Assembly: GCA_913056175.1 (NCBI GenBank)
Contig: CAJXLM010000009.1
Coordinates: forward strand, 1 to 64,000
DNA from: an uncultured Opitutia bacterium
GTDB lineage: Bacteria > Verrucomicrobiota > Verrucomicrobiia > Opitutales > Puniceicoccaceae
DNA: 64,000 nt
Direction of reading: 5' to 3'
The notes under the pieces are model-generated. The model searched no databases. It was given only the letters and a program-made list of their open reading frames with translations, and was not told where the DNA came from. Below are positions 2,344-43,122 of this stretch, in pieces (the stretch's first letter is position 1; every line of letters starts with the position of its first letter). The translations under genes and the position numbers were made by a program.

Positions 2344-2533
2344 GGGTTCCTCCTGTTCCTGACGTGACCAATGACTCTGTACCATCGGAACTCTTACCGT
2401 TCCGGGACGCCTTCCCGCAAGCATGACCGGGGCATCCCACCCCTTCCAACCTGCGCGCCCCCGTTCCCTCCCCGTCCTTTGCCATGGCCACTCGGAGAAG
2501 CCAAGGCTAGGCTTTCCACCCTTCCTGAATTTC

Positions 2534-3607
2534 ATGGACTCCCTCCGTCGTCGTCTCCCCCTCCTCTTGCTCGCGCTTCTTGGGATCGTGGCCCTCGGCT
2601 TTCTCGTGTGGCGAGCGCTCCCCGAGGAACAGCTCCCCGCCGGCTTTGCCTCCGGCAATGGCCGGATCGAGGCCACCGAGATTGACCTCGCCAGCCGCAC
2701 CGCCGGCCGTCTCGAGGAGCTTCTCGTCCGGGAGGGAGACCTTGTGGAAAGGGGGGACCTCCTCGCGCGAATGGATACCCGCTCCCTCCGGGCGGCCCTG
2801 CACGAGGCAGAGGCCCGGGCGCGACAGGCGCGTGTCGGTGTGGACACCGCCCTGCGCGGGATTGAGCAAGCCCGGGCCGAGCAGGAGGCCGCGAGGGCCG
2901 TGGTGGCCCAGCGGGAAGCCGAGCTGGAGGCGGCCCGCAAGCAACTGGCCCGGACTGAGGAACTCGCCGGAAGGGACGCCGTGCCCGCCTCCCAAGTGGA
3001 CAACGATCGGGCGGGGTTCGAGGCCGCCCGGGCCGCGGTGGCCGCCGCCCGGGCCCAGGTGGAGGCCGCCGGGGCCGCCCTCGGGCGGGCAGAGGCCGAC
3101 GCGATTGCCGCGGAAGCGGCCGTCGAGGCGGCCGAAGCGACCGTGGAGCGGCTCACCGCCGATCTCGAGGACGGGGTCCTGCGGGCCCCCCGCGACGGCC
3201 GCGTCCAGTACCGGGTCGCCCAGCCCGGCGAAGTCCTCTCCGCCGGGGGAGTGGTCCTCAACATGGTCGACCTCACCGATGTCTACATGACGATCTTCCT
3301 CCCCACGGCCGAGGCCGGCCGGGTGGCCCTCGGTGCCGAGGCCCGCATCGTCCTCGACGCGGCTCCCGACCTCGTCTTCCCCGCTGAGGTCACCTTCGTC
3401 GCGTCCGTGGCCCAGTTCACCCCGAAGACCGTCGAAACCGAGGAGGAGCGAGCCAAGCTCATGTTCCGGGTGCGGGCCAGCCTCGACCCCGACCTGCTCC
3501 GGCAGTACCTCCGGCAAGTGAAGACAGGGCTCCCCGGCCTCACCTACGTCCGCCTCGATCCCGACCTGCCCTGGCCGGAGGAGCTCCGCGTACAGCTCCC
3601 GGAATGA
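2534..3607 (+). CDS. HlyD-family periplasmic adaptor of an ABC exporter (YhiI/YbhG type)
   Basis: This 357-residue membrane-fusion protein has one N-terminal membrane anchor (residues 5-27). A first biotinyl-lipoyl half follows (GRIEATEIDLASRTAGRLEE), then a long Ala/Glu/Arg coiled-coil hairpin (about 85-210), the second lipoyl half (LRAPRDGRVQYRVAQPGE) and a beta-barrel region. Such adaptors bridge an inner-membrane transporter to an outer-membrane channel. The stop overlaps the next start (ATGA), so it is translationally coupled to the fused ATPase/permease. The ATG at 2534 was preferred over an upstream in-frame codon because it begins directly at the anchor. No Shine-Dalgarno is visible. 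The cargo is unknown. Confidence 0.9.
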   Translation: MDSLRRRLPLLLLALLGIVALGFLVWRALPEEQLPAGFASGNGRIEATEIDLASRTAGRLEELLVREGDLVERGDLLARMDTRSLRAALHEAEARARQARVGVDTALRGIEQARAEQEAARAVVAQREAELEAARKQLARTEELAGRDAVPASQVDNDRAGFEAARAAVAAARAQVEAAGAALGRAEADAIAAEAAVEAAEATVERLTADLEDGVLRAPRDGRVQYRVAQPGEVLSAGGVVLNMVDLTDVYMTIFLPTAEAGRVALGAEARIVLDAAPDLVFPAEVTFVASVAQFTPKTVETEEERAKLMFRVRASLDPDLLRQYLRQVKTGLPGLTYVRLDPDLPWPEELRVQLPE

Positions 3608-6519
3608 GCCTGCCCGGTCCCAGCGAGTCGGCTGCGGACCGCTCCGGCCGCTCCCCTCCGGCCAATCCCTCCCCCTCCCCCGCATCCCCGGTGATCCGCG
3701 TCGCCGGGGCCCGGCTCCGCTACGGCCGGCACACCGCACTCGCCGGCATCGATCTCACCGTGCGGGCCGGGGAACAAGTCGCCGTGATCGGGCCCGACGG
3801 TGTCGGGAAGTCCAGCCTCCTCGCCCTCATCGCCGGGGCCCGCCGCCTCCAGGAGGGGGAAGTCGAAGTCCTCGGGGGGTCCATGCGGTCTGCCCGCCAC
3901 CGCCACCGCATCTGCCAACGGATCGCCTACCTCCCCCAGGGACTTGGCCGTAACCTCTACGACTCCCTGAGCGTGCGGGAGAACATCGACTTCTTTGCCC
4001 GCCTTTTCGGGGGAAAAGCCGCCGACCGCGGAGAACGCATCGACGCGCTCACCGAGGCTACCGGGCTGGCCGCCTTCCGCGAGCGGGCTGCCGCCCACCT
4101 CAGCGGAGGCATGCGGCAGAAGCTGGGTCTCTGCTGCGCCCTCGTCCACGAACCCGACCTTCTTCTCCTCGACGAGCCGACCACCGGCATTGACCCCCTC
4201 TCCCGACGCCAGTTCTGGGAACTCATCGCCGACCTCCGCGCGGCCCGTCCCCGGCTCGCCCTTCTCCTCGCCACCTCCTACCTCTCGGAGGCCCGGGAAT
4301 TCGACGCGATTCTCGCATTGCAGGAGGGCCGGACCCTCGCCCGCGGCACCCCGCAGGACCTCCTCCAGCGGACCGACCGCACCTCCCTCGAGCAGGCCTT
4401 TCTCGCCCTGCTCGAGGATCGGGAAGGAGCACCCGCCCAGGGGGCGGACCAAGCGGGAGCCAACGGCGACCCGGTCGACAATGCGCAGCCTTCGCATTCC
4501 CGCCCCTCCAGGTCCGCGGATCCTCTCCCCTCCCCCGACCGAGGGGACCGCGACAAACCCATCGCCCTCGAGGCCGACCATCTCACCCTCCGCTTCGGGA
4601 ACTTCACGGCAGTCGACTCCGCCCGCTTCCGCGTCCACCAGGGCGAGATCTTCGGCTTCGTCGGCTCGAACGGCTCCGGGAAGACCACCACCATGAAGAT
4701 GCTCGCCGGCCTGCTCACCCCCAGCGAGGGGCGGGCTTTCCTTTTCGGGCAACCCGTCGATCCCCGCCGACTCGGCGATCGCCGCCGGATCGGCTACCTC
4801 GCCCAGACCTTCTCCCTCTACCGGAAGCTCACCGTCCGGCAAAACCTCCGTCTCCACGGCCGCCTCTACCGGATCCCCCCCGCGGACCTCGGCTCCCGCA
4901 TGCAGGAAGCGGCCGGACGATTCGGTTTGGAGGAGGTGCTCGACCGCCTCCCCGATGAGCTGCCTCTCGGCCTCCAGCAAAGGCTCTCCCTCGCCGTCGC
5001 GGTGATCCACCGACCCGACGTCCTCATCCTCGACGAGCCCACCAGCGGGGTCGACCCTCTCGCCCGGGAGGACTTCTGGCAACAGCTGCAGGAACTCTCC
5101 CGCCGCGACGGGGTCACGATCTTCCTCTCCACCCATCTCATGCCCGAGGCGCAGCGCTGCGACCGGGTCGCGCTCATGCACGAGGGCCGGGTCCTCGCCA
5201 CCGACACGCCCGCCGCCCTTTGCGACCAGCAGGACGAGGAGGACCTCGAGGAAGCGTTTGTCGCCTTCCTCCGTGCGGAGAGCGAGGGCAACCACGGGGA
5301 CCGTGCCCTTGCCGGAAGGACCCTCCACCAGCCCCCCTCGGCTCCGGTCCCCTCCTCTCCGCCACCCGCGGCGGACACCGCCCCCGCCGGTCTCTTCCGT
5401 CTCCACCGCGCCCTCGCCTACGCCCGGCGGGAAACCCTCGAGCTTTGCCGTGACCCCGTCCGGCTCACCCTCGCCTTCCTCGGCAGCCTCCTCCTCATGT
5501 TCGTGATGGGGCACGGGATCAGCCTCGACGTGGAGGACCTCGATTTCGCCGTGCTCGATCGCGACGACACCGCCGCCAGCCGCGACTACGCGGAGAGTCT
5601 GGCCGGTTCCCGCTACTTCCACGCGCAAGCGCCCCTCCGAGGCTACGCCGACCTCGACGAGCGCCTCCGCAGGGGCGAGCTGAGCCTCGCCGTGGAGATC
5701 CCCCCCGGCTTTGGGCGGGCCCTCGCCCGTGGGGAACCGGTCGCGATCGGGGCCTGGCTGGACGGCTCCATGCCCTCGCGGGCGGAGACCGCCCGCGGCT
5801 ACGTGCAGGGACTCCACCAGTCCTGGCTGGCCCGGCGCGCCCGCGCGGCCGGTCTCGAGCCCGAGGCGGTTCTCCCCGCGCGGATCGAGACCCGCTTCCG
5901 GTACAACCCGCAGCTGGAGAGCCTCGTGGCCATGGTGCCGGCCATGATCCCGCTCCTCCTCCTCATGATCCCGGCCATGCTCGCCTCGCTCAGCGTCGTC
6001 CGGGAAAAGGAGCTGGGATCGATCGTCAACTTCTACGTGACCCCCACCCGTCGGCTCGAGTTCCTCCTCGGCAAGCAGGCCCCCTACCTCATCCTCTCCT
6101 TCCTCAGCTTCCTCCTCCTCGTCCTCTTCGCCGTCGGGGGCTTCCAGGTACCCCTGAAGGGCAGCCTCCTCCTGCTCAGTGGGGCGGCCCTCCTCTACCT
6201 CGCCGCCGCCACCGCCCTCGGCATGTTCCTCTCCAGTTTCCTGCGCAGCCAGATCGCCGCGATCTTTGGCACCGCTGTGCTCACCATCCTGCCGGCGGTG
6301 AACTTCTCCGGACTGCTCAACCCGGTCTCCTCCCTGCAGGGATTCGGCCGAGTAGTCGGCGAACTCTACCCGACCACCCACTTCCTCCTCCTCGTCCGCG
6401 GCACCTTCTCCAAGGCGCTCGGACCCGCCGACCTGCAGGCCTCGCTCTGGCCGCTCGCCGCCTCCGTGCCCGTCCTCGTCCTCCTCGCCGCCCTCGCCCT
6501 TCGCAAGCAGGAGAAATGA
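3604..6519 (+). CDS. Tandem ABC ATPase fused to ABC-2 permease (RbbA/YhiH type)
   Basis: This 971-residue fusion carries two nucleotide-binding domains and a membrane domain. ATPase 1 has Walker A GPDGVGKS (63-70), signature LSGGMRQK and LLLLDEPTTG. A low-complexity linker (about 280-320) precedes ATPase 2, with Walker A GSNGSGKT (about 354-361) and LILDEPTSG. The second signature is degenerate (LGLQQRLSL instead of LSGGQ). From about residue 600 an ABC-2 permease follows, with one TM helix, a large external domain and five or six TM helices. The layout matches RbbA/YhiH, which in E. coli neighbours the same HlyD and YhhJ partners. It overlaps both neighbours by 4 nt. It probably powers export; the ribosome-associated role proposed for E. 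coli RbbA cannot be assumed. Confidence 0.9.
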   Translation: MSLPGPSESAADRSGRSPPANPSPSPASPVIRVAGARLRYGRHTALAGIDLTVRAGEQVAVIGPDGVGKSSLLALIAGARRLQEGEVEVLGGSMRSARHRHRICQRIAYLPQGLGRNLYDSLSVRENIDFFARLFGGKAADRGERIDALTEATGLAAFRERAAAHLSGGMRQKLGLCCALVHEPDLLLLDEPTTGIDPLSRRQFWELIADLRAARPRLALLLATSYLSEAREFDAILALQEGRTLARGTPQDLLQRTDRTSLEQAFLALLEDREGAPAQGADQAGANGDPVDNAQPSHSRPSRSADPLPSPDRGDRDKPIALEADHLTLRFGNFTAVDSARFRVHQGEIFGFVGSNGSGKTTTMKMLAGLLTPSEGRAFLFGQPVDPRRLGDRRRIGYLAQTFSLYRKLTVRQNLRLHGRLYRIPPADLGSRMQEAAGRFGLEEVLDRLPDELPLGLQQRLSLAVAVIHRPDVLILDEPTSGVDPLAREDFWQQLQELSRRDGVTIFLSTHLMPEAQRCDRVALMHEGRVLATDTPAALCDQQDEEDLEEAFVAFLRAESEGNHGDRALAGRTLHQPPSAPVPSSPPPAADTAPAGLFRLHRALAYARRETLELCRDPVRLTLAFLGSLLLMFVMGHGISLDVEDLDFAVLDRDDTAASRDYAESLAGSRYFHAQAPLRGYADLDERLRRGELSLAVEIPPGFGRALARGEPVAIGAWLDGSMPSRAETARGYVQGLHQSWLARRARAAGLEPEAVLPARIETRFRYNPQLESLVAMVPAMIPLLLLMIPAMLASLSVVREKELGSIVNFYVTPTRRLEFLLGKQAPYLILSFLSFLLLVLFAVGGFQVPLKGSLLLLSGAALLYLAAATALGMFLSSFLRSQIAAIFGTAVLTILPAVNFSGLLNPVSSLQGFGRVVGELYPTTHFLLLVRGTFSKALGPADLQASLWPLAASVPVLVLLAALALRKQEK

Positions 6520-7649
6520 ATCGCTTCCCCCGGCCCTCGACCCTCCTCCGCCTCGGGCAGAAGGAGTTGCTCCAACTCGCCCGCGATCCGCTCCTGCTCG
6601 TGCTGGTGATCTACACCTTCACCTTCGCGATCTACTCCGCCGCCACCGCCCTCCCGGAGACCCTCCACCGTGCCACCGTCTCCATTGTGGACGAGGACCA
6701 TTCCCCGCTGTCCCGCCGGATCGCCGACGCCCTCCAGGCACCCTACTTCAGCGAGCCGGACCTCGTCAGCCACCGCCAAATGGACGCCCGGCTCGACGCC
6801 GGCCTCGACATCTTCGCGCTGAACATCCCACCCGACTTCCAGGCGGACGTGCTCGCCGGGGAACAGCCTGCCCTCCAGCTCAATGTCGACGCCACCCGCA
6901 TGAGCCAGGCCTTCGCCGGGAGCGGCTACCTCCAGCAGATCGTGCGCGACGAGATCGCCGCGTTCGTCAAGGGCTACCGGGCCGGGGAGGCCCCCGCCGT
7001 CGACCTCGCCCTGCGCGCCCGCTTCAACCCGCAATTGGATCCCGGCTGGTTCGGCGGGATCATCGAAACCATCTCGAACGTCACCCTCCTCGCCCTCGTG
7101 CTCGGGGGTGCCTCCCTCATCCGCGAAAAGGAACACGGCACCCTCGAACACCTGCTCTCCCTGCCGGTCCGGCCCTCAGAGATCCTACTCTCCAAGATCC
7201 TCTCGATGGGCCTCATCGTCCTGGCGGCCGCCCTCTTCGCCCTCGAAGTCATCGTGGAGGGAGTGCTCGCCGTGCCCGTGCGCGGCTCCCTGCTCCTCTT
7301 CGGCACCGGGACGGTCCTGCACCTGCTCGCGACCACCTCGCTCGGCATCCTCCTCGGCCTGCTGGCCCCCTCCATGCCCCGCTTCGGGCTCCTCACCATC
7401 CTCGTGCTCCTTCCCCTGCAGATGCTCTCCGGCGGGATGACCCCGCGCGAGAGCATGCCCGAGTGGATCCAGATGGTCATGCTCGCCGCCCCCAACACCC
7501 ACTATGTCGCCCTTGCCGAAGCCGTCCTCTTCCGGGGAGCTGGCTGGGAATTGGTGGCACCCCAGCTGCTCGCCCTCCTCGCGATCGGCAGTGCCCTTTT
7601 CGCCCTTGCCCTTGTCCGGTTCCGCTCCTCCCTCGGCCACGCCGCCTGA
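6516..7649 (+). CDS. ABC-2 type permease subunit (YhhJ-like)
   Basis: This 377-residue inner-membrane protein has one N-terminal TM helix (about 23-43), a large non-cytoplasmic domain and then five to six C-terminal TM helices (about 180-370). It includes the ABC-2 coupling block REKEHGTLEHLLSLPVRP and LSGGMTPRESMPEWIQ. It belongs to the same family as the C-terminal half of the upstream fusion, so the two would form the transmembrane dimer. Its ATG overlaps the upstream stop (ATGA), completing a three-gene coupled export operon. No outer-membrane channel gene lies beside it. Confidence 0.9.
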   Translation: MNRFPRPSTLLRLGQKELLQLARDPLLLVLVIYTFTFAIYSAATALPETLHRATVSIVDEDHSPLSRRIADALQAPYFSEPDLVSHRQMDARLDAGLDIFALNIPPDFQADVLAGEQPALQLNVDATRMSQAFAGSGYLQQIVRDEIAAFVKGYRAGEAPAVDLALRARFNPQLDPGWFGGIIETISNVTLLALVLGGASLIREKEHGTLEHLLSLPVRPSEILLSKILSMGLIVLAAALFALEVIVEGVLAVPVRGSLLLFGTGTVLHLLATTSLGILLGLLAPSMPRFGLLTILVLLPLQMLSGGMTPRESMPEWIQMVMLAAPNTHYVALAEAVLFRGAGWELVAPQLLALLAIGSALFALALVRFRSSLGHAA

Positions 7650-20079: not shown

Positions 20080-22599
20080 TCAGCCCACCGAGTCCCCCAC
20101 CGCCAATCGCAACTCCGCATAGCTCGCGCGTACCGCGAGGCGGGCGCTCACGAGGGATTCGCGGGCGGTGGTCAGGTCGGCCTGGGCGGTCTGCACCTCG
20201 TTGAGAGTCGCCAAGCCGTTCTCGAAGGAGGCAAGGGTCGCCTCGTGGGAGGCCTCCGCCGCCGCGAGAAGGGCCGCCGCCGAGGTGACCTGCTCACGGG
20301 CATTCCGGAAATCGATGAAAGCCGTCCACACCTCGCGGACGGCTTGATTGCGGGCCTTGCGCAGCTCCGCCTGCACCTTGCGCTCCTCCGCGCGGGCCTC
20401 ACGGATCTCCGCCGCCCGTCGGTCCCCCTCAAACACGGTCCACTCGAACACGATGCCCGCGCCGTAGAGGGGCTCGGTCTTGGGATCGATCCACGAATCG
20501 TCCTCCACCCGGAAGGCATTGGTCACCCAGCCGGCATTCGCGTTCGCAGAGAGGACGGGCCACCAGCCGGCCTCCGCTTCCGCGATGCCGGCCTCCGCCG
20601 CCCGCAGGGCCGCTACCCGCGCGCGCAGGTCGGGCCGCTGGAGGAGGGCCCGGTCCACCAGCTGGCCTGCCCCGTTCTCGAGCACGGGCAACGCGCTCTC
20701 GTCCAAGTCGTCCGCGATCCGCGGGGGCTGGCTGGGATCGATCCCCACCGCCTCCGCGAGTCGCACCCGGGCGGACTGGAGATCCCCCCGCAACGCGGAG
20801 CGGTCGAAGCGGGTCTGGGCGACCGCCTGGCGGGCCCGGAGGAGTTCGGGCTCGGTAACGAGTCCCTGCCGGAAGCCGAGCGCGGCCGCCTCCTCGAGGA
20901 GGAGGGCGTCCTCGAGGGCAGCTTCGGCCACGCGCTCCTGCGCCCGGGTCTCCAGCACCGCGTAGTAGGCCTCCGTGACTTCGAAGACCACGGCCTGGTG
21001 CTCGGCGTTGAAGGCAAAGGTTTCCGCAAGAGCCATTTGGCGGGTCGCCTCCACGGCCGCCGCACTCTCCCCGAAATCGAGGAGCAGCCACTCCACGGAG
21101 ACCTGCGGGCGGAACTGGGCGGCGTCGACGCTGAACCTTCCCTTCGGAAAGAGATCCGTCGGCAGGGGAAAGTCCTGCCGCTCGTAGGCGCCGAGGAGGG
21201 CCAGGGAGACCTCCGGCGAGAAGGTACTCGCGGCCACGCCCACCCGGGCCGCCGCTGCCCGGGCTCGCTCCCACGCCAGCCGGGTCTCGGGACGGTTCCG
21301 CTGGGCCAGATCGATCAGGGCGGGCAAGCGGTAGACCTCCCCGGGATTGTAGGCAGCCACCCTCGCCTCGCGGAAAGCCGCGGGCATCCGGTAGTCGGCC
21401 GCGTCCGGCGGCTCCCACGAACGGTCCGGGATGGGTGGCGCCACGCCGCTGCCAATCTGGCAGCCGGGCAGGAAGAAGAGCGCCGCCATCAAGCCCACCG
21501 CAACGGTGGCGGGTCGCGCGGTCTTCTTCACGAGGCGCTTGGTCTCGTCCGGCCAGAGAACCGCGAACACGAGGGCCATCATGAGATTGCCGAGGAGGAT
21601 ACCGAGGAGGCGGTCGCGCAGGACGGTGAGATCGGTGCTCGGACCGAAACCGTGCGTCAACATCATGAACTGGGCGAGCCCGATCTGCCAGCCGGCGTAG
21701 GCGATCCGCTCGCTGCCGACCGCAACCCATGCGGCGATCGCCGAGCCGAATGCGAGGAAGAGCAGAAGGGCCCCGAACGCCTCGTCCGCCGGGATGATCG
21801 ATACGGTCGCCCAGAAGGCCAGAATCGCCCCGGTAGTGGCTCCCGTGATCCGCAACCAACTCTTGTGCACGATCGCCGCGGTCGTGGGCAGGGCGACGAT
21901 GAGGCAGGTAACAAGGGCGGTGTGGATGAGGGGGAGGTCGACGATGCTGTAGACGAAGTAGGTGGCCATGGAGGCAAGGGTGGCCTTGATTGCGTAGAAG
22001 GTGTATACCGGGTTCTTGGGCCAGTCCTTCGCCATGGTGATCTGCGGTAGGGGCTCAGGGGGGAGGCCTTCCGGGGTCGCCCGCTCGGGCGGAAAGAGGA
22101 AGGTGGCCAGCACGACGGAGCCAGTGCCCGCGAAAGTGATCGGGAGAATCCAGAGGGCCGCCCGCTCCCAGAGATGAGGATAGGGGAGCACATCCGGAAG
22201 GGTCAGGATGATCGCGAGGCAGATGGTGAAGTCCCGCATCAGGTCCCCGTCACTCATGCCCCGCGAGACGAAAAAGCCGATGTAGAGAATGAGGGTCAGC
22301 CAGAGGAGGCGGAGCCAGTCCGGATCGGAGGCGAACTTGAGGAGGAGAAGCCCGATGAAGACCGCCATGATGACCAAGAGGACCACCGCGACACAACTGA
22401 TGTAGGTCGAGGCGCTGCCATTCCGGGACGTGGCGATGCAGAAGTAGAGGGCGAGCCAACCGAGCACGGGCATACGGAAGGCCATCACCATGATCGTCGT
22501 GAACACTACCGCCACGACGATCCGGAGAGTGAGCAGGCCCCGGCCGGGAAAGGGCATGAGGTCGTCCACGACCTGCCCGAATTTGCGCAGAAAAGTCAC
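20080..22599 (-). CDS. FUSC inner-membrane protein fused to TolC-type outer-membrane lipoprotein (AaeB-OMF fusion)
   Basis: One uninterrupted 839-residue frame contains two transporter parts. Residues 1-355 are a FUSC/AaeB-like membrane domain with two sets of TM helices. Residue 357 onward reads VKKTARPATVAVGLMAAL then FFLPGC (Cys380), a complete lipoprotein signal peptide with lipobox. The remainder is an outer-membrane efflux (TolC/NodT) protein with two coiled-coil repeats (about 430-630 and 640-835). The gene starts at GTG (22599), overlapping the aaeA-like stop (GTGA). A codon at 21531 (GTG) could be an internal start giving a separate lipoprotein. Either product would complete an inner-periplasm-outer membrane pump. 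AaeB homologues export aromatic acids. Confidence 0.85.
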   Translation of the reverse strand: MTFLRKFGQVVDDLMPFPGRGLLTLRIVVAVVFTTIMVMAFRMPVLGWLALYFCIATSRNGSASTYISCVAVVLLVIMAVFIGLLLLKFASDPDWLRLLWLTLILYIGFFVSRGMSDGDLMRDFTICLAIILTLPDVLPYPHLWERAALWILPITFAGTGSVVLATFLFPPERATPEGLPPEPLPQITMAKDWPKNPVYTFYAIKATLASMATYFVYSIVDLPLIHTALVTCLIVALPTTAAIVHKSWLRITGATTGAILAFWATVSIIPADEAFGALLLFLAFGSAIAAWVAVGSERIAYAGWQIGLAQFMMLTHGFGPSTDLTVLRDRLLGILLGNLMMALVFAVLWPDETKRLVKKTARPATVAVGLMAALFFLPGCQIGSGVAPPIPDRSWEPPDAADYRMPAAFREARVAAYNPGEVYRLPALIDLAQRNRPETRLAWERARAAAARVGVAASTFSPEVSLALLGAYERQDFPLPTDLFPKGRFSVDAAQFRPQVSVEWLLLDFGESAAAVEATRQMALAETFAFNAEHQAVVFEVTEAYYAVLETRAQERVAEAALEDALLLEEAAALGFRQGLVTEPELLRARQAVAQTRFDRSALRGDLQSARVRLAEAVGIDPSQPPRIADDLDESALPVLENGAGQLVDRALLQRPDLRARVAALRAAEAGIAEAEAGWWPVLSANANAGWVTNAFRVEDDSWIDPKTEPLYGAGIVFEWTVFEGDRRAAEIREARAEERKVQAELRKARNQAVREVWTAFIDFRNAREQVTSAAALLAAAEASHEATLASFENGLATLNEVQTAQADLTTARESLVSARLAVRASYAELRLAVGDSVG

Positions 22600-23672
22600 G
22601 GCTGCTCCCGCAGGGTGGCCACCGCCGAGGCGCCCACCCGGAAGGTCTCGACGGGATCGGGCTGGTCCACGCGGATGCGCACGGGGAAGCGGCGGGCCAG
22701 CCGCACCCAGTCAAGCTCCGCCCGTACGAACGGTAGCTCCGTCGCGTCGAACTGGGCATCGGTCTGAATGCCCCAGCCGATGTTGACCACCGTGCCGGTG
22801 TAGGTGCGGTCGGGAGCGGTGAGCACCTCCACGTCGACCTTTTTTCCCACCGACATCCGCCGTAAGTCCCCCTCCCGGAACCGGGCCACCACGAACCACT
22901 CGCTGGTGTCCACGAGGGTAAAGAGGGGCTCACCGGGCAGGACCATCCGGCCGGGCGGGAAGTCGAGGTTGACCACCCGGCCGTCGTACGGGGCCACCAC
23001 GGTGCACCGGTCCAGCTCGATCGCGGCCTGCCGTTCATTGATCCGCGCCGCCCGCAACTGTTGCCGGATGGGCTCGAGCTCGGGCACGGCGAGGCGGGCC
23101 GCGGTGACTTGGCGCTCGGCCGCCACCACCGAGGCCTGGGCCTCCTGCAGGGACGCCCGCGCCTCATCGTAGGTCTCCGCGGTTACGAAAGAACGCTCCA
23201 CCATCGGCTCGAGCCGGGCCAAGGTCTCCGCAGCGAGCTGCTCGGAGGCGAGGGCCAGCTCGAGGTTCGCCTCCGCAACGCGGACCTCCGCGCGGGCGGC
23301 TTCCCGCATCCGCTCCGCTTCCGCCAGTTCCGCCTCGAGTACCGAGACCTGGGCGGCGGCCTCTTCCACGGCGAGCTGGTAGCTGGTCGGATCCAGCCGG
23401 ACGAGCAAGTCCCCCTTCTCCACGGCCTGCCCGTCCTCCACGGCGACCTCGACCACACGGCCGGGCACCTCGGTGGCCACCGCCGTGTAGCGGGCCAGGA
23501 CGCTGGCGTCATCCGTGCGCGGAAACTGCTCGCCCCGCACGAGGAGCCACGCCCCGAGGGCAATGGCGCCGAGGATCACCGCCAGGCTGAGCAGCCCGGC
23601 AATAATTCGCAGCATAGGATGCTTGCCGCTCTCCTTGGTCGGGGGAGCGGAAGACGCTTCGGTTTCACTCAT
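22596..23672 (-). CDS. HlyD-family efflux adaptor (AaeA/EmrA-like)
   Basis: This 358-residue membrane-fusion protein has one TM anchor (about residues 20-46), the lipoyl halves TAVATEVPGRVVEVAVEDGQ and CTVVAPYDGRVVNLDFPPG, an alpha-hairpin rich in Ala/Glu between them and a beta-barrel with TYTGTVVNIGWGIQ. It is the periplasmic link between the FUSC transporter and outer-membrane channel encoded by the next gene, whose start overlaps its stop. The order DUF1656, HlyD, FUSC matches E. coli aaeXAB. Confidence 0.9.
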   Translation of the reverse strand: MSETEASSAPPTKESGKHPMLRIIAGLLSLAVILGAIALGAWLLVRGEQFPRTDDASVLARYTAVATEVPGRVVEVAVEDGQAVEKGDLLVRLDPTSYQLAVEEAAAQVSVLEAELAEAERMREAARAEVRVAEANLELALASEQLAAETLARLEPMVERSFVTAETYDEARASLQEAQASVVAAERQVTAARLAVPELEPIRQQLRAARINERQAAIELDRCTVVAPYDGRVVNLDFPPGRMVLPGEPLFTLVDTSEWFVVARFREGDLRRMSVGKKVDVEVLTAPDRTYTGTVVNIGWGIQTDAQFDATELPFVRAELDWVRLARRFPVRIRVDQPDPVETFRVGASAVATLREQP

Positions 23673-23682
23673 GGCGGGTGGT

Positions 23683-23886
23683 CTACGAGGCGAAGAGAAG
23701 AATCCATAACCCGCCTGACCAGAGAAGGATCAGCCCGGGGTAGAAGAGGAGAGGAAGAAGGATGTAGCGGTCGAGACGGAGGAGATGCAGGACGGACTTG
23801 GTTACCGCGGTTAGCACGATACCGGCAAGGACCGCGAGGATCCAGCCGGGAAAATACGCTCCTAAAATCTGAATCTCCGTACTCAC
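23683..23886 (-). CDS. DUF1656/AaeX-like small inner-membrane protein
   Basis: This 67-residue protein has two TM helices. EIQILGAYFPGWILAVLAGI and the basic turn RLDRYILLPLLFYPGL match the AaeX pattern (an FPP-like entry, an R-x-x-R/F turn, then a second helix). Its function is unknown, but it nearly always precedes an HlyD/FUSC pair, as here with a 10-nt gap. It starts at GTG (23886); the longer frame upstream runs antisense through the alcohol dehydrogenase gene and is not credible. Confidence 0.8.
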   Translation of the reverse strand: MSTEIQILGAYFPGWILAVLAGIVLTAVTKSVLHLLRLDRYILLPLLFYPGLILLWSGGLWILLFAS

Positions 23887-24042
23887 TGCCCGTCTTTGTG
23901 CACGCGGAGGAGAGCAGGGCAAGAAAAGTCCCGCAAGTTCTGAAACGGGGAATTGCCGCAGAGCGTTCTTCCAGGCAGGCTCTTGCACCAACCCGACCGC
24001 ACGGGGCCTCCGCGGCCCCCACCCGATTGTCCCGCGAACCTG

Positions 24043-25170
24043 ATGAAAATCCACGCCGCCGTCCTTGAAGCCATGGGAGCCGAACCTCCCTACGCCCGCA
24101 GCCAGCCCCTCTCCTGGCAGGAACTCGACCTGCAGGAACCCGGGGAGGGAGAGGTCCTCGTGAAGATCCGTGCGGCCGGGCTCTGCCACTCCGACCTCTC
24201 CGTAATGAACGGGACCCGCCCCCGCCCCACTCCCATGGCCCTCGGCCACGAGGCCGCCGCCACGGTGGAGAAGCTGGGCCCGGGTGTGACCGACCTCGAG
24301 CCGGGCGATCACGTGGTGATGGTCTTCGTACCGAGCTGCGGCCACTGCCCGGCCTGCTCGGAGGGCCGCCCGGCTCTCTGCGAGCCGGGGAACGCCCACA
24401 ACAAGGAGGGCACCCTCCTCAGCGGCGCCCGCCGCCTCAGTCGTGACGGCGAACCGGTTCACCACCACCTCGGGGTCTCCTGCTTCGCGGAATACGCGGT
24501 CTGCTCCCGCTGGTCGCTGGTCAAGATCGACCGGGAGGTCCCCTTCGAGCATGCCGCTCTCTTCGGTTGCGCGGTCCTCACGGGAGTCGGGGCCGCAGTG
24601 AACACGGCCCAGGTCCGCCCGGGACAATCAGTCGCGGTCGTCGGGCTCGGGGGAGTCGGGCTCGCCGCCCTCCTCGGCGCACGCGCCGCCGGGGCCGAGC
24701 AGATCGTCGCGGTCGACCTGCTCCCGGAAAAACTGGAACTGGCCCGCCGGCTGGGGGCCACCGACACGGTCCTCGCCGGACGCGACGAGACCGCCGGGGA
24801 AGTCCGCGCGGCCACCCGCGGCGGAGTCCACGCGGCCATCGAGACCGCCGGCGTGGTGCGCGCGGTCGAGCTGGCGTTCGCCATCACTCGTATCGGGGGT
24901 ACCACCGTTACGGCTGGCCTCTCCCACCCGGATACCCGCATCTCCGTCCACCCGGTGACCCTCGTCGCCGAGGAACGCACGCTCAAGGGCTCCTACGTCG
25001 GCAGCTGCATCCCCGTCCGCGATGTGGACCGCTACGTCCGCCTCTACAAAGCCGGTCGCCTCCCGGTCGACCAGCTGCTCACCGATACGATCCGCCCCCG
25101 GGAACTCAACGCCGCCTTCGACAAGCTCGATGCCGGACAGGCGGTTCGCCAAGTTCTTCTCGTCGATTAG
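24043..25170 (+). CDS. Zinc-dependent alcohol dehydrogenase (MDR family)
   Basis: This 375-residue cytosolic medium-chain dehydrogenase has catalytic zinc ligands in GLCHSDL (Cys48) and GHE (His69-Glu70) and a structural zinc site of four Cys (99, 102, 105, 113). The Rossmann motif is GLGGVGLAALLGA, with an acidic residue in VAVDLLPEK indicating NAD. It resembles class III/benzyl alcohol dehydrogenases with the extra loop after the structural zinc. The substrate is undetermined. It is divergent from the efflux operon (156-nt shared upstream region), which could link it to detoxification of the same compounds. Confidence 0.9.
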   Translation: MKIHAAVLEAMGAEPPYARSQPLSWQELDLQEPGEGEVLVKIRAAGLCHSDLSVMNGTRPRPTPMALGHEAAATVEKLGPGVTDLEPGDHVVMVFVPSCGHCPACSEGRPALCEPGNAHNKEGTLLSGARRLSRDGEPVHHHLGVSCFAEYAVCSRWSLVKIDREVPFEHAALFGCAVLTGVGAAVNTAQVRPGQSVAVVGLGGVGLAALLGARAAGAEQIVAVDLLPEKLELARRLGATDTVLAGRDETAGEVRAATRGGVHAAIETAGVVRAVELAFAITRIGGTTVTAGLSHPDTRISVHPVTLVAEERTLKGSYVGSCIPVRDVDRYVRLYKAGRLPVDQLLTDTIRPRELNAAFDKLDAGQAVRQVLLVD

Positions 25171-41634: not shown

Positions 41635-43122
41635 ATGAGCGCAAACCCTCCCCCACCCGCGGCCCCCGCCGGTACCGGCCCCCTCCGGACCGCCCTCATC
41701 GTCCTCGCGCTCGCCGCACTGGCCAACGCACTCTACCTCGCCTACCTCGGTCTGAACACGAGCGCGGAGTGCGTGGCCGGGGCGGATTGCGACGCCATTG
41801 TCGGCAGTGAGTACGGGAAATTCCTCGGGATTCCCGTCTCCGTCTACGCTGTCGGCTTCTACCTGCTGATCCTCGGGCTCGCCTTCTGGCGGTCGGCCCT
41901 CGTGCCGCGCACCCGCTGGATTCTCGGGCTGGCCTGGTTGGGGGTAATCGCCTCGGCCGTCTTCACCTTCATCCAGTTGGTCCTCCTGCCGGGCTTCTGC
42001 GCGTTCTGCTTCCTCAATTTCCTGCTGGTTGTGGCCATCGCCGCGGTCGCCGGCCGCCTCTGGCGGCAAGTGCGCGGGGATGCGTCTTTCTGGAGCGCCG
42101 AGGAACTGGTCACCCTCGCCGTGCCCGCTGCCCTCGTCTCCTTCCTCCTTCCCCTCGCCGGTTACGGACTCTTCGCCTACGGGCAGAGCCTCGCCGAGCC
42201 CGTCCCGGAAGACCCGGTGGTCGCCTTCGTCGACGGCCGCGAAGTCCGGCTCTCCACCCTCGACGACCGCATCCAGGGCCAGCTCCGCGATCTGCACGAA
42301 CAGCGCAACGAGGCGCGGATGAGGGCACTCGAGAACCTCGTGATCGAGGAAGTCGCCGACCGCCGGGGGATGGCCCCGGAACGGCTGGTCCAGCAGGGGC
42401 TGTCCACCGTCAACACCGTGACCGAAGGGCAAATCACCCAGTTCTACGAGGCCAACCGGGACCGGCTGCCACCCGGGCTCAGTGAAAGCCAGGCCCGCTC
42501 CCAGATCCGCAACTTTCTCCAGCAACAACAGCAACAGCAGGCCTACCGGATCTTCGTGCGCGACCTCCTCGCCCGGGAGGGCGTCCGCCCGGATCTGCCG
42601 GAGCCGCCCGGTGTGGAAATCCCCCCGGCCGGTCCCGAGACCATCACCGTGGGCAATCCCGAGGCACCGGTACGCATCGTCGAGTTCTCCGACCTCCAGT
42701 GCCCCGCCTGCGCCAACGCCCACGAACAGGTGAAGGCGCTCCTCGCGGGCCCCCTCGGCGAGGAGATCTTCCTCGAGTTCCGGCACTTTCCGCTCGGCCA
42801 GCACGAGGAGGCGGAGCCCGCCGCCCGCGCCCTCACCTGCGCGGACCGGCAGGGGCGCTTCGCGGAGGCGGCCGATCTGCTCTTCCGCAACCAGGGTGCC
42901 TGGGGAGGCCGAGACCCAGTGGCCTATGTTGCCAACCGGGTCGACCTCGATGAGGAAGCCTTTAACAACTGTGTCCGCGAGAGTGCGGTGGCCGCCAGCG
43001 TCGAGGGCGACCGCGATCTGGGGATCGAGCTGGGAATCAACAGCACCCCCTCCTTCTTCGTGAACGGCCGCGCCGTGCGCGGAGTACCGACGGAGGAACA
43101 GGTCCGCCGGCTCGTCCGCTGA
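41635..43122 (+). CDS. VKOR - SurA-like - DsbA triple-domain fusion (disulfide-bond formation)
   Basis: This 495-residue inner-membrane protein has three parts. Residues 20-185 are a vitamin K epoxide reductase domain with loop cysteines Cys46 and Cys52 and the active CAFC pair (Cys122, Cys125). Residues about 195-318 resemble the helical SurA/PpiC-type chaperone segment (VDGREVRLSTLDDRIQGQLR, ENLVIEEVADRRGM), with a run of Gln near 296-302. Residues 330-495 are a DsbA-like thioredoxin domain with CPAC (Cys356, Cys359) and cis-Pro in NSTPSFFVNG. Together they would oxidise substrate thiols outside the membrane and pass electrons to quinone. The next gene encodes a secreted thioredoxin-like protein. 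Confidence 0.88.
   Translation: MSANPPPPAAPAGTGPLRTALIVLALAALANALYLAYLGLNTSAECVAGADCDAIVGSEYGKFLGIPVSVYAVGFYLLILGLAFWRSALVPRTRWILGLAWLGVIASAVFTFIQLVLLPGFCAFCFLNFLLVVAIAAVAGRLWRQVRGDASFWSAEELVTLAVPAALVSFLLPLAGYGLFAYGQSLAEPVPEDPVVAFVDGREVRLSTLDDRIQGQLRDLHEQRNEARMRALENLVIEEVADRRGMAPERLVQQGLSTVNTVTEGQITQFYEANRDRLPPGLSESQARSQIRNFLQQQQQQQAYRIFVRDLLAREGVRPDLPEPPGVEIPPAGPETITVGNPEAPVRIVEFSDLQCPACANAHEQVKALLAGPLGEEIFLEFRHFPLGQHEEAEPAARALTCADRQGRFAEAADLLFRNQGAWGGRDPVAYVANRVDLDEEAFNNCVRESAVAASVEGDRDLGIELGINSTPSFFVNGRAVRGVPTEEQVRRLVR

Follow-up and report, generated by a model that had tools for sequence, protein, structure and literature searches.

A single reading frame in the 64,000-nt stretch of Opitutia DNA analysed here (the window) encodes both a FUSC-type inner-membrane permease and a TolC-type outer-membrane lipoprotein, joined end to end. 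Is this frame a genuine gene, to which pump does it belong, and how could one chain supply both membrane layers of a pump? Judged from sequence comparisons, the fusion is a real, conserved and rare gene of the MdtNOP family, and its product is most likely a two-part precursor that is cut by lipoprotein signal peptidase (LspA).

The fused frame, its domains and its operon

The first-pass annotation had described one 839-codon frame containing a FUSC domain, a lipoprotein signal and an outer-membrane efflux protein (OEP), with a GTG at 21531 and an embedded lipobox cysteine. The description is borne out; the frame runs from 22599 to 20080 on the reverse strand without an internal stop, and its coordinates are correct, with the GTG at codon 357, the lipobox Cys at codon 380 and the sequence VKKTARPATVAVGLMAALFFLPGC in between (Table 1). 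The GTG start of the fusion shares the 4 nt GTGA with the end of mdtN.

Table 1. Coordinates of the fusion gene, its parts and the genes upstream of it.
Feature	Position	Strand	Description	Evidence
mdtO::mdtP fusion gene	20080..22599	(-)	839 codons, GTG start, TGA stop	Open frame, 3 full-length relatives, Pfam FUSC_2 and OEP
Compact FUSC permease	21544..22599	(-)	Codons 1-352	AlphaFold helices, NF008510 match, MdtO alignment
Internal lipoprotein signal	21460..21531	(-)	Codons 357-380 (VKK... to LPGC)	Codon listing, Gly-Cys conservation
Mature TolC-type outer-membrane channel	20083..21459	(-)	Codons 381-839	OEP profile, PDB fold matches
mdtN-like periplasmic adaptor	22596..23672	(-)	358 aa	MdtN profile (NF007785) scoring above AaeA (NF007850)
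ytcA-like small membrane protein	23683..23886	(-)	67 aa	Ytca profile (PF17090) scoring above DUF1656

The Pfam scan of the fusion protein finds two OEP repeats (188 bits) and FUSC_2 at residues 214-343, the latter with 24.5 bits against a cut-off of 25.6, and with 30.2 bits in the DNA scan. The AlphaFold model of the fusion (mean pLDDT 73.6, pTM 0.46, 14 aligned sequences), in which the relative placement of the permease and channel halves carries no weight, orders the chain as six helices, a short break, six further helices, a signal helix (350-381), a low-confidence stretch (375-409) and a complete TolC fold (425-834). A fold search of the PDB returns TolC, OprN, CusC and VceC, with TM-scores to the target of 0.70-0.77 and E-values of about 1e-14. 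With two OEP repeats and a TolC fold, the channel half is a TolC-type OEP.

In an alignment with MdtO of E. coli and other bacteria, the fused permease has retained the two membrane halves and is without the large central and C-terminal cytoplasmic regions. The twelfth helix closes with a conserved ..LWP; the junction falls directly behind it, at the point from which MdtO would run on into its C-terminal region. Basic residues at 354, 355, 358, 359 and 362 lie between helix 12 and the signal. Together, the model and these charges fit an arrangement in which the permease ends inside the cell and the signal crosses outward, and the lipobox would therefore face the periplasm, where lipobox cutting occurs. 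Two genomes of the same class carry unfused MdtO-like permeases (L071, 1125-2744; L072, 6722-8443) in which the central region is kept and the C-terminal region is absent; both adjoin a channel gene on the opposite strand.

The signal itself has a basic n-region, a hydrophobic stretch and an invariant Cys, and it is internal, occupying residues 357-380 of 839 and not the N-terminus of the chain. Across all four fused proteins known here, G379-C380 is invariant while most of the surrounding signal varies, and nearly all unfused channel relatives have a lipobox at the same place. The embedded lipoprotein signal of the first-pass annotation is thus present and its Gly-Cys is kept in four genomes, but its LPGC lipobox, with Pro at -2, departs from the usual Leu-Ala/Ser-Gly/Ala-Cys (PMC9360617), to which the FTGC, ATGC and MTGC of the relatives are nearer.

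The genes upstream had been annotated as aaeX- and aaeA-like, an assignment that the bit scores do not uphold. The small protein matches Ytca (PF17090) with 51.6 bits, above the cut-off of 28.8, versus 27.5 bits for DUF1656, the AaeX-type family. The adaptor's best match is MdtN (NF007785) at 306 bits, below the equivalog cut-off of 376, versus 120 bits for AaeA, and an AaeXAB identity was rejected on these two comparisons. Further, the permease half is closest to MdtO (NF008510), at 157.7 bits versus a cut-off of 821. In all four fused loci, a ytcA-type small gene and then mdtN precede the fusion, the small protein of the relatives being assigned by reading. Because of these best matches, the gene order of E. 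coli and the separate genes of unfused relatives, the sequences identify the operon as ytcA-mdtN-[mdtO::mdtP], an operon of the MdtNOP type whose last two genes are joined.

Relatives and history of the fusion

The first-pass annotation had asked for homologues with the same fusion, and had counted a stop at the junction in all close relatives as evidence against it. A search among 87 relatives found the full-length fusion in a single stop-free frame in three further genomes, at identities of 47% (L002, from G055), 44% (L003, from G001) and 42% (L004, from G082), so that no stop separates the halves in any of the four. The fused set (n = 4, including the window) lies entirely within Opitutia and spans two families. 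A scan of named genomes also returned a full-length fusion in Opitutia bacterium UBA4506 (L033); its DNA is 100% identical to L003 over the gene, and it was taken as the same genome, counted once and rejected as a fifth case. Long open frames at other channel genes, on contigs C43 and C23 of the window's own genome and in G042, G038, G070 and G051, turned out to encode ordinary single channels whose upstream sequence is also open.

The distribution of the fusion is rare and patchy. It occurs in 2/4 and 2/10 genomes of the two families concerned, and samples drawn from the order (373 genomes), the class (384) and the phylum (388), which overlap, contained no further fused copy. In a plasmid collection, no fused copy covered at least 80% of the query, and the matches examined were adjacent separate genes.

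Could a sequencing or assembly error have deleted a stop between two normal genes? The window does come from a draft assembly of 84 contigs, but the fusion is common to four independently assembled genomes with colinear trees, and this explanation, refuted by the relatives, is scarcely credible. When the permease and channel halves were placed in trees of their own, the four fused proteins formed one clade each time (support 100/99 and 98/98), and the inner branching is identical in both, as win,(L002,(L003,L004)). Because the two trees agree and each unites the fused forms, the simplest reading indicated by the trees is a single old fusion that was inherited as a unit. The branching disagrees with the families, the window and L003 belonging to one family, and transfer between lineages or loss of paralogues has therefore taken place.

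Fates of the fused chain

The favoured reading, with a probability of about 0.7, is that one chain is translated, lipidated and cut by LspA. Phrased as a sequence of events, the ribosome would translate mdtO::mdtP as a single chain, the twelve permease helices would enter the inner membrane with the C-terminus inside, and the embedded signal would cross outward as a thirteenth helix. Prolipoprotein processing would follow, in which Lgt is predicted to lipidate Cys380 and LspA to cleave before it, releasing a lipoprotein that would be carried to the outer membrane and trimerise there as the exit duct; the spent signal helix would stay on the permease and anchor its C-terminus. This reading is favoured because Gly-Cys is invariant, the unfused relatives are lipoproteins, the linker is no longer than theirs, start codons are missing from the junction in two of the four genes, and the genome encodes both Lgt (230.8 bits) and LspA (121.8 bits). 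The proposal of one chain cut by lipoprotein signal peptidase, already made in the first-pass annotation, is well supported by the conservation of frame and signal in four genomes; its main weakness is the off-consensus LPGC lipobox of the window, with Pro at -2.

Alternatively, two proteins could be made from the same gene, namely the full chain or its permease part, together with a lipoprotein started inside the frame. The candidate starts, which count against a single-chain-only reading, are the GTG of codon 357 in the window, the TTG of codon 357 in L003 and a pair of ATG codons near codon 340 (338-341) in all four fused genes. In particular, GTG AAG AAG in the window and TTG CAA AAA in L003 would each give a normal-looking signal peptide, and the ancestor probably had a start at the junction, since E. 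coli mdtP begins by a 4-nt overlap with mdtO. However, the signal n-region of L002 and L004 is devoid of ATG, GTG and TTG, and in the window GTG 357 is preceded by a weakly pairing ribosome site (-3.2 kcal/mol versus -6.6 kcal/mol at the gene's own start). The ATG pair, 36-40 codons before the Cys, encodes a conserved permease Met-Met that is also found in some unfused permeases, and initiation there would yield an odd 40-residue leader. Moreover, as there is no stop codon, the long chain would still be made. Because two of the four n-regions lack starts, the ribosome site is weak and the ATG pair is explained by Met-Met, a conserved internal start is unlikely, if less clearly so for the window, and the case for a second protein from GTG 21531, which had been offered as the other solution, is weakened. 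The two-protein outcome as a whole is accordingly given a low probability.

A different possibility is that LspA does not act at all. A single chain could stay uncut and reach from the inner membrane to the outer one, held in the former by the signal helix as a thirteenth anchor; there is no stop to prevent it, and the window protein might be cut less well because of its Pro at -2. Yet only about 45 mostly floppy residues lie between the helix and the channel, probably too few to bridge the periplasm as far as the equatorial region of a docked TolC-type channel, the length limit being an estimate from the known dimensions of tripartite pumps. Between the Cys and the first conserved helix motif of the channel, the fused proteins have 48-50 residues and unfused lipoproteins 48-79, and the former therefore carry no added tether. 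An uncut chain would also leave the invariant lipobox Cys without a reason. It is quite improbable, and the chance is likewise slim that the chain is never or not always cut, leaving one polypeptide to tie the permease to the channel across the periplasm. Cutting by signal peptidase I or an envelope protease, in place of LspA, is very unlikely: a Hymenobacter fusion of an RND permease to a TolC-type channel has an internal ARA-Q that resembles a signal peptidase I site, and such a sister design may use that enzyme, but Gly-Cys is kept in the four fused proteins and their unfused relatives are lipoproteins.

If cleavage by LspA is correct, then the cell obtains an outer-membrane lipoprotein by cutting the tail off an inner-membrane transporter with many membrane passes. 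Lgt and LspA would then tolerate a signal that lies inside the chain, behind twelve membrane helices, and a single start on the mRNA would supply the two membrane layers of the pump in equal amounts; a fixed ratio as the reason for the fusion is a guess. In the open-access papers searched, no report was found of LspA cleaving at an internal signal behind a many-pass membrane domain, nor of a published LspA-cut polyprotein or FUSC/TolC fusion. A comparable arrangement outside lipoproteins is the Bradyrhizobium fbcH precursor of cytochromes b and c1, in which a many-pass membrane protein and a secreted partner form one chain that is cleaved at an internal signal; it differs from the window protein in belonging to a respiratory complex, in its signal peptidase I site and in having no lipid.

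Comparison with other pumps and neighbouring genes

The E. coli ytcA-mdtN-mdtO-mdtP operon matches the window in gene order, which runs YtcA, adaptor, FUSC permease, outer-membrane lipoprotein, and in having them all on one strand. E. coli keeps mdtO (683 aa) apart from mdtP, the two genes having the 4-nt overlap mentioned above, whereas the window has one frame, conserved in four genomes. E. coli MdtO has central and C-terminal cytoplasmic regions, unlike the fused permease, and the channel half of the window is distant from E. coli MdtP in the tree. As for substrates, mdtOP confers resistance to pyrrolomycins and armeniaspirols in an E. coli tolC mutant (PMC8672772), and a review lists ACR and PUR, taken here as acriflavine and puromycin, for MdtNOP (PMC8277102).

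The closest unfused relatives of both halves are mdtNOP-like operons of Ensifer, Burkholderia, Cupriavidus, Roseibium and Deefgea, whose permeases are longer than the fused form. Several lipidated channels of these operons share a LAPxxxxRPW-like start after the Cys; the Deefgea channel has no lipobox, unlike the fused proteins. The permease and channel genes are separate in all of them, being adjacent on one strand in Roseibium, Ensifer, Burkholderia and Cupriavidus and on opposite strands in Deefgea, as they are in Paenalcaligenes, Aeromonadales and Oceanisphaera.

The design of an inner-membrane transporter fused to an outer-membrane channel is already known from Hymenobacter sp. YIM 151500-1, and the FUSC::lipobox::OEP form is new. 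The Hymenobacter CusA/CzcA::OEP protein (L082, 2501-6895; 1464 aa, ACR_tran and OEP), the one example on which the comparison with Bacteroidota rests, places transporter and channel in one chain, as the window does. Between its halves lies a signal-peptide-like stretch that ends in ..LTGSPARAQ, of the signal peptidase I type, in contrast to the lipobox of the window; a Gln after the signal peptidase I site is typical of Bacteroidetes (PMC5837995). Its permease is of the RND family, not FUSC, and the two fusions are of unrelated origin. Taken together, they suggest that permease and channel have been linked by way of an internal signal on more than one occasion.

Divergent from the pump operon of the window lies a zinc alcohol dehydrogenase gene (24040-25170, forward strand). 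Beside the pump genes of Deefgea (L034), an apparent class III alcohol dehydrogenase and an S-formylglutathione hydrolase were recognised by reading; these alcohol dehydrogenase neighbours may hint at the substrate of the pump or at a stress.

Elsewhere in the window, a 971-aa chain (3604-6519, forward strand) combines two ABC ATPase domains with an ABC2 permease domain. It is flanked by overlapping genes at 2423-3607 and 6516-7649, and the cluster (2423-7649) is probably another exporter operon. Further downstream, a natural fusion of VKOR with a DsbA/thioredoxin-type domain (495 aa) is encoded at 41635-43122 on the forward strand.
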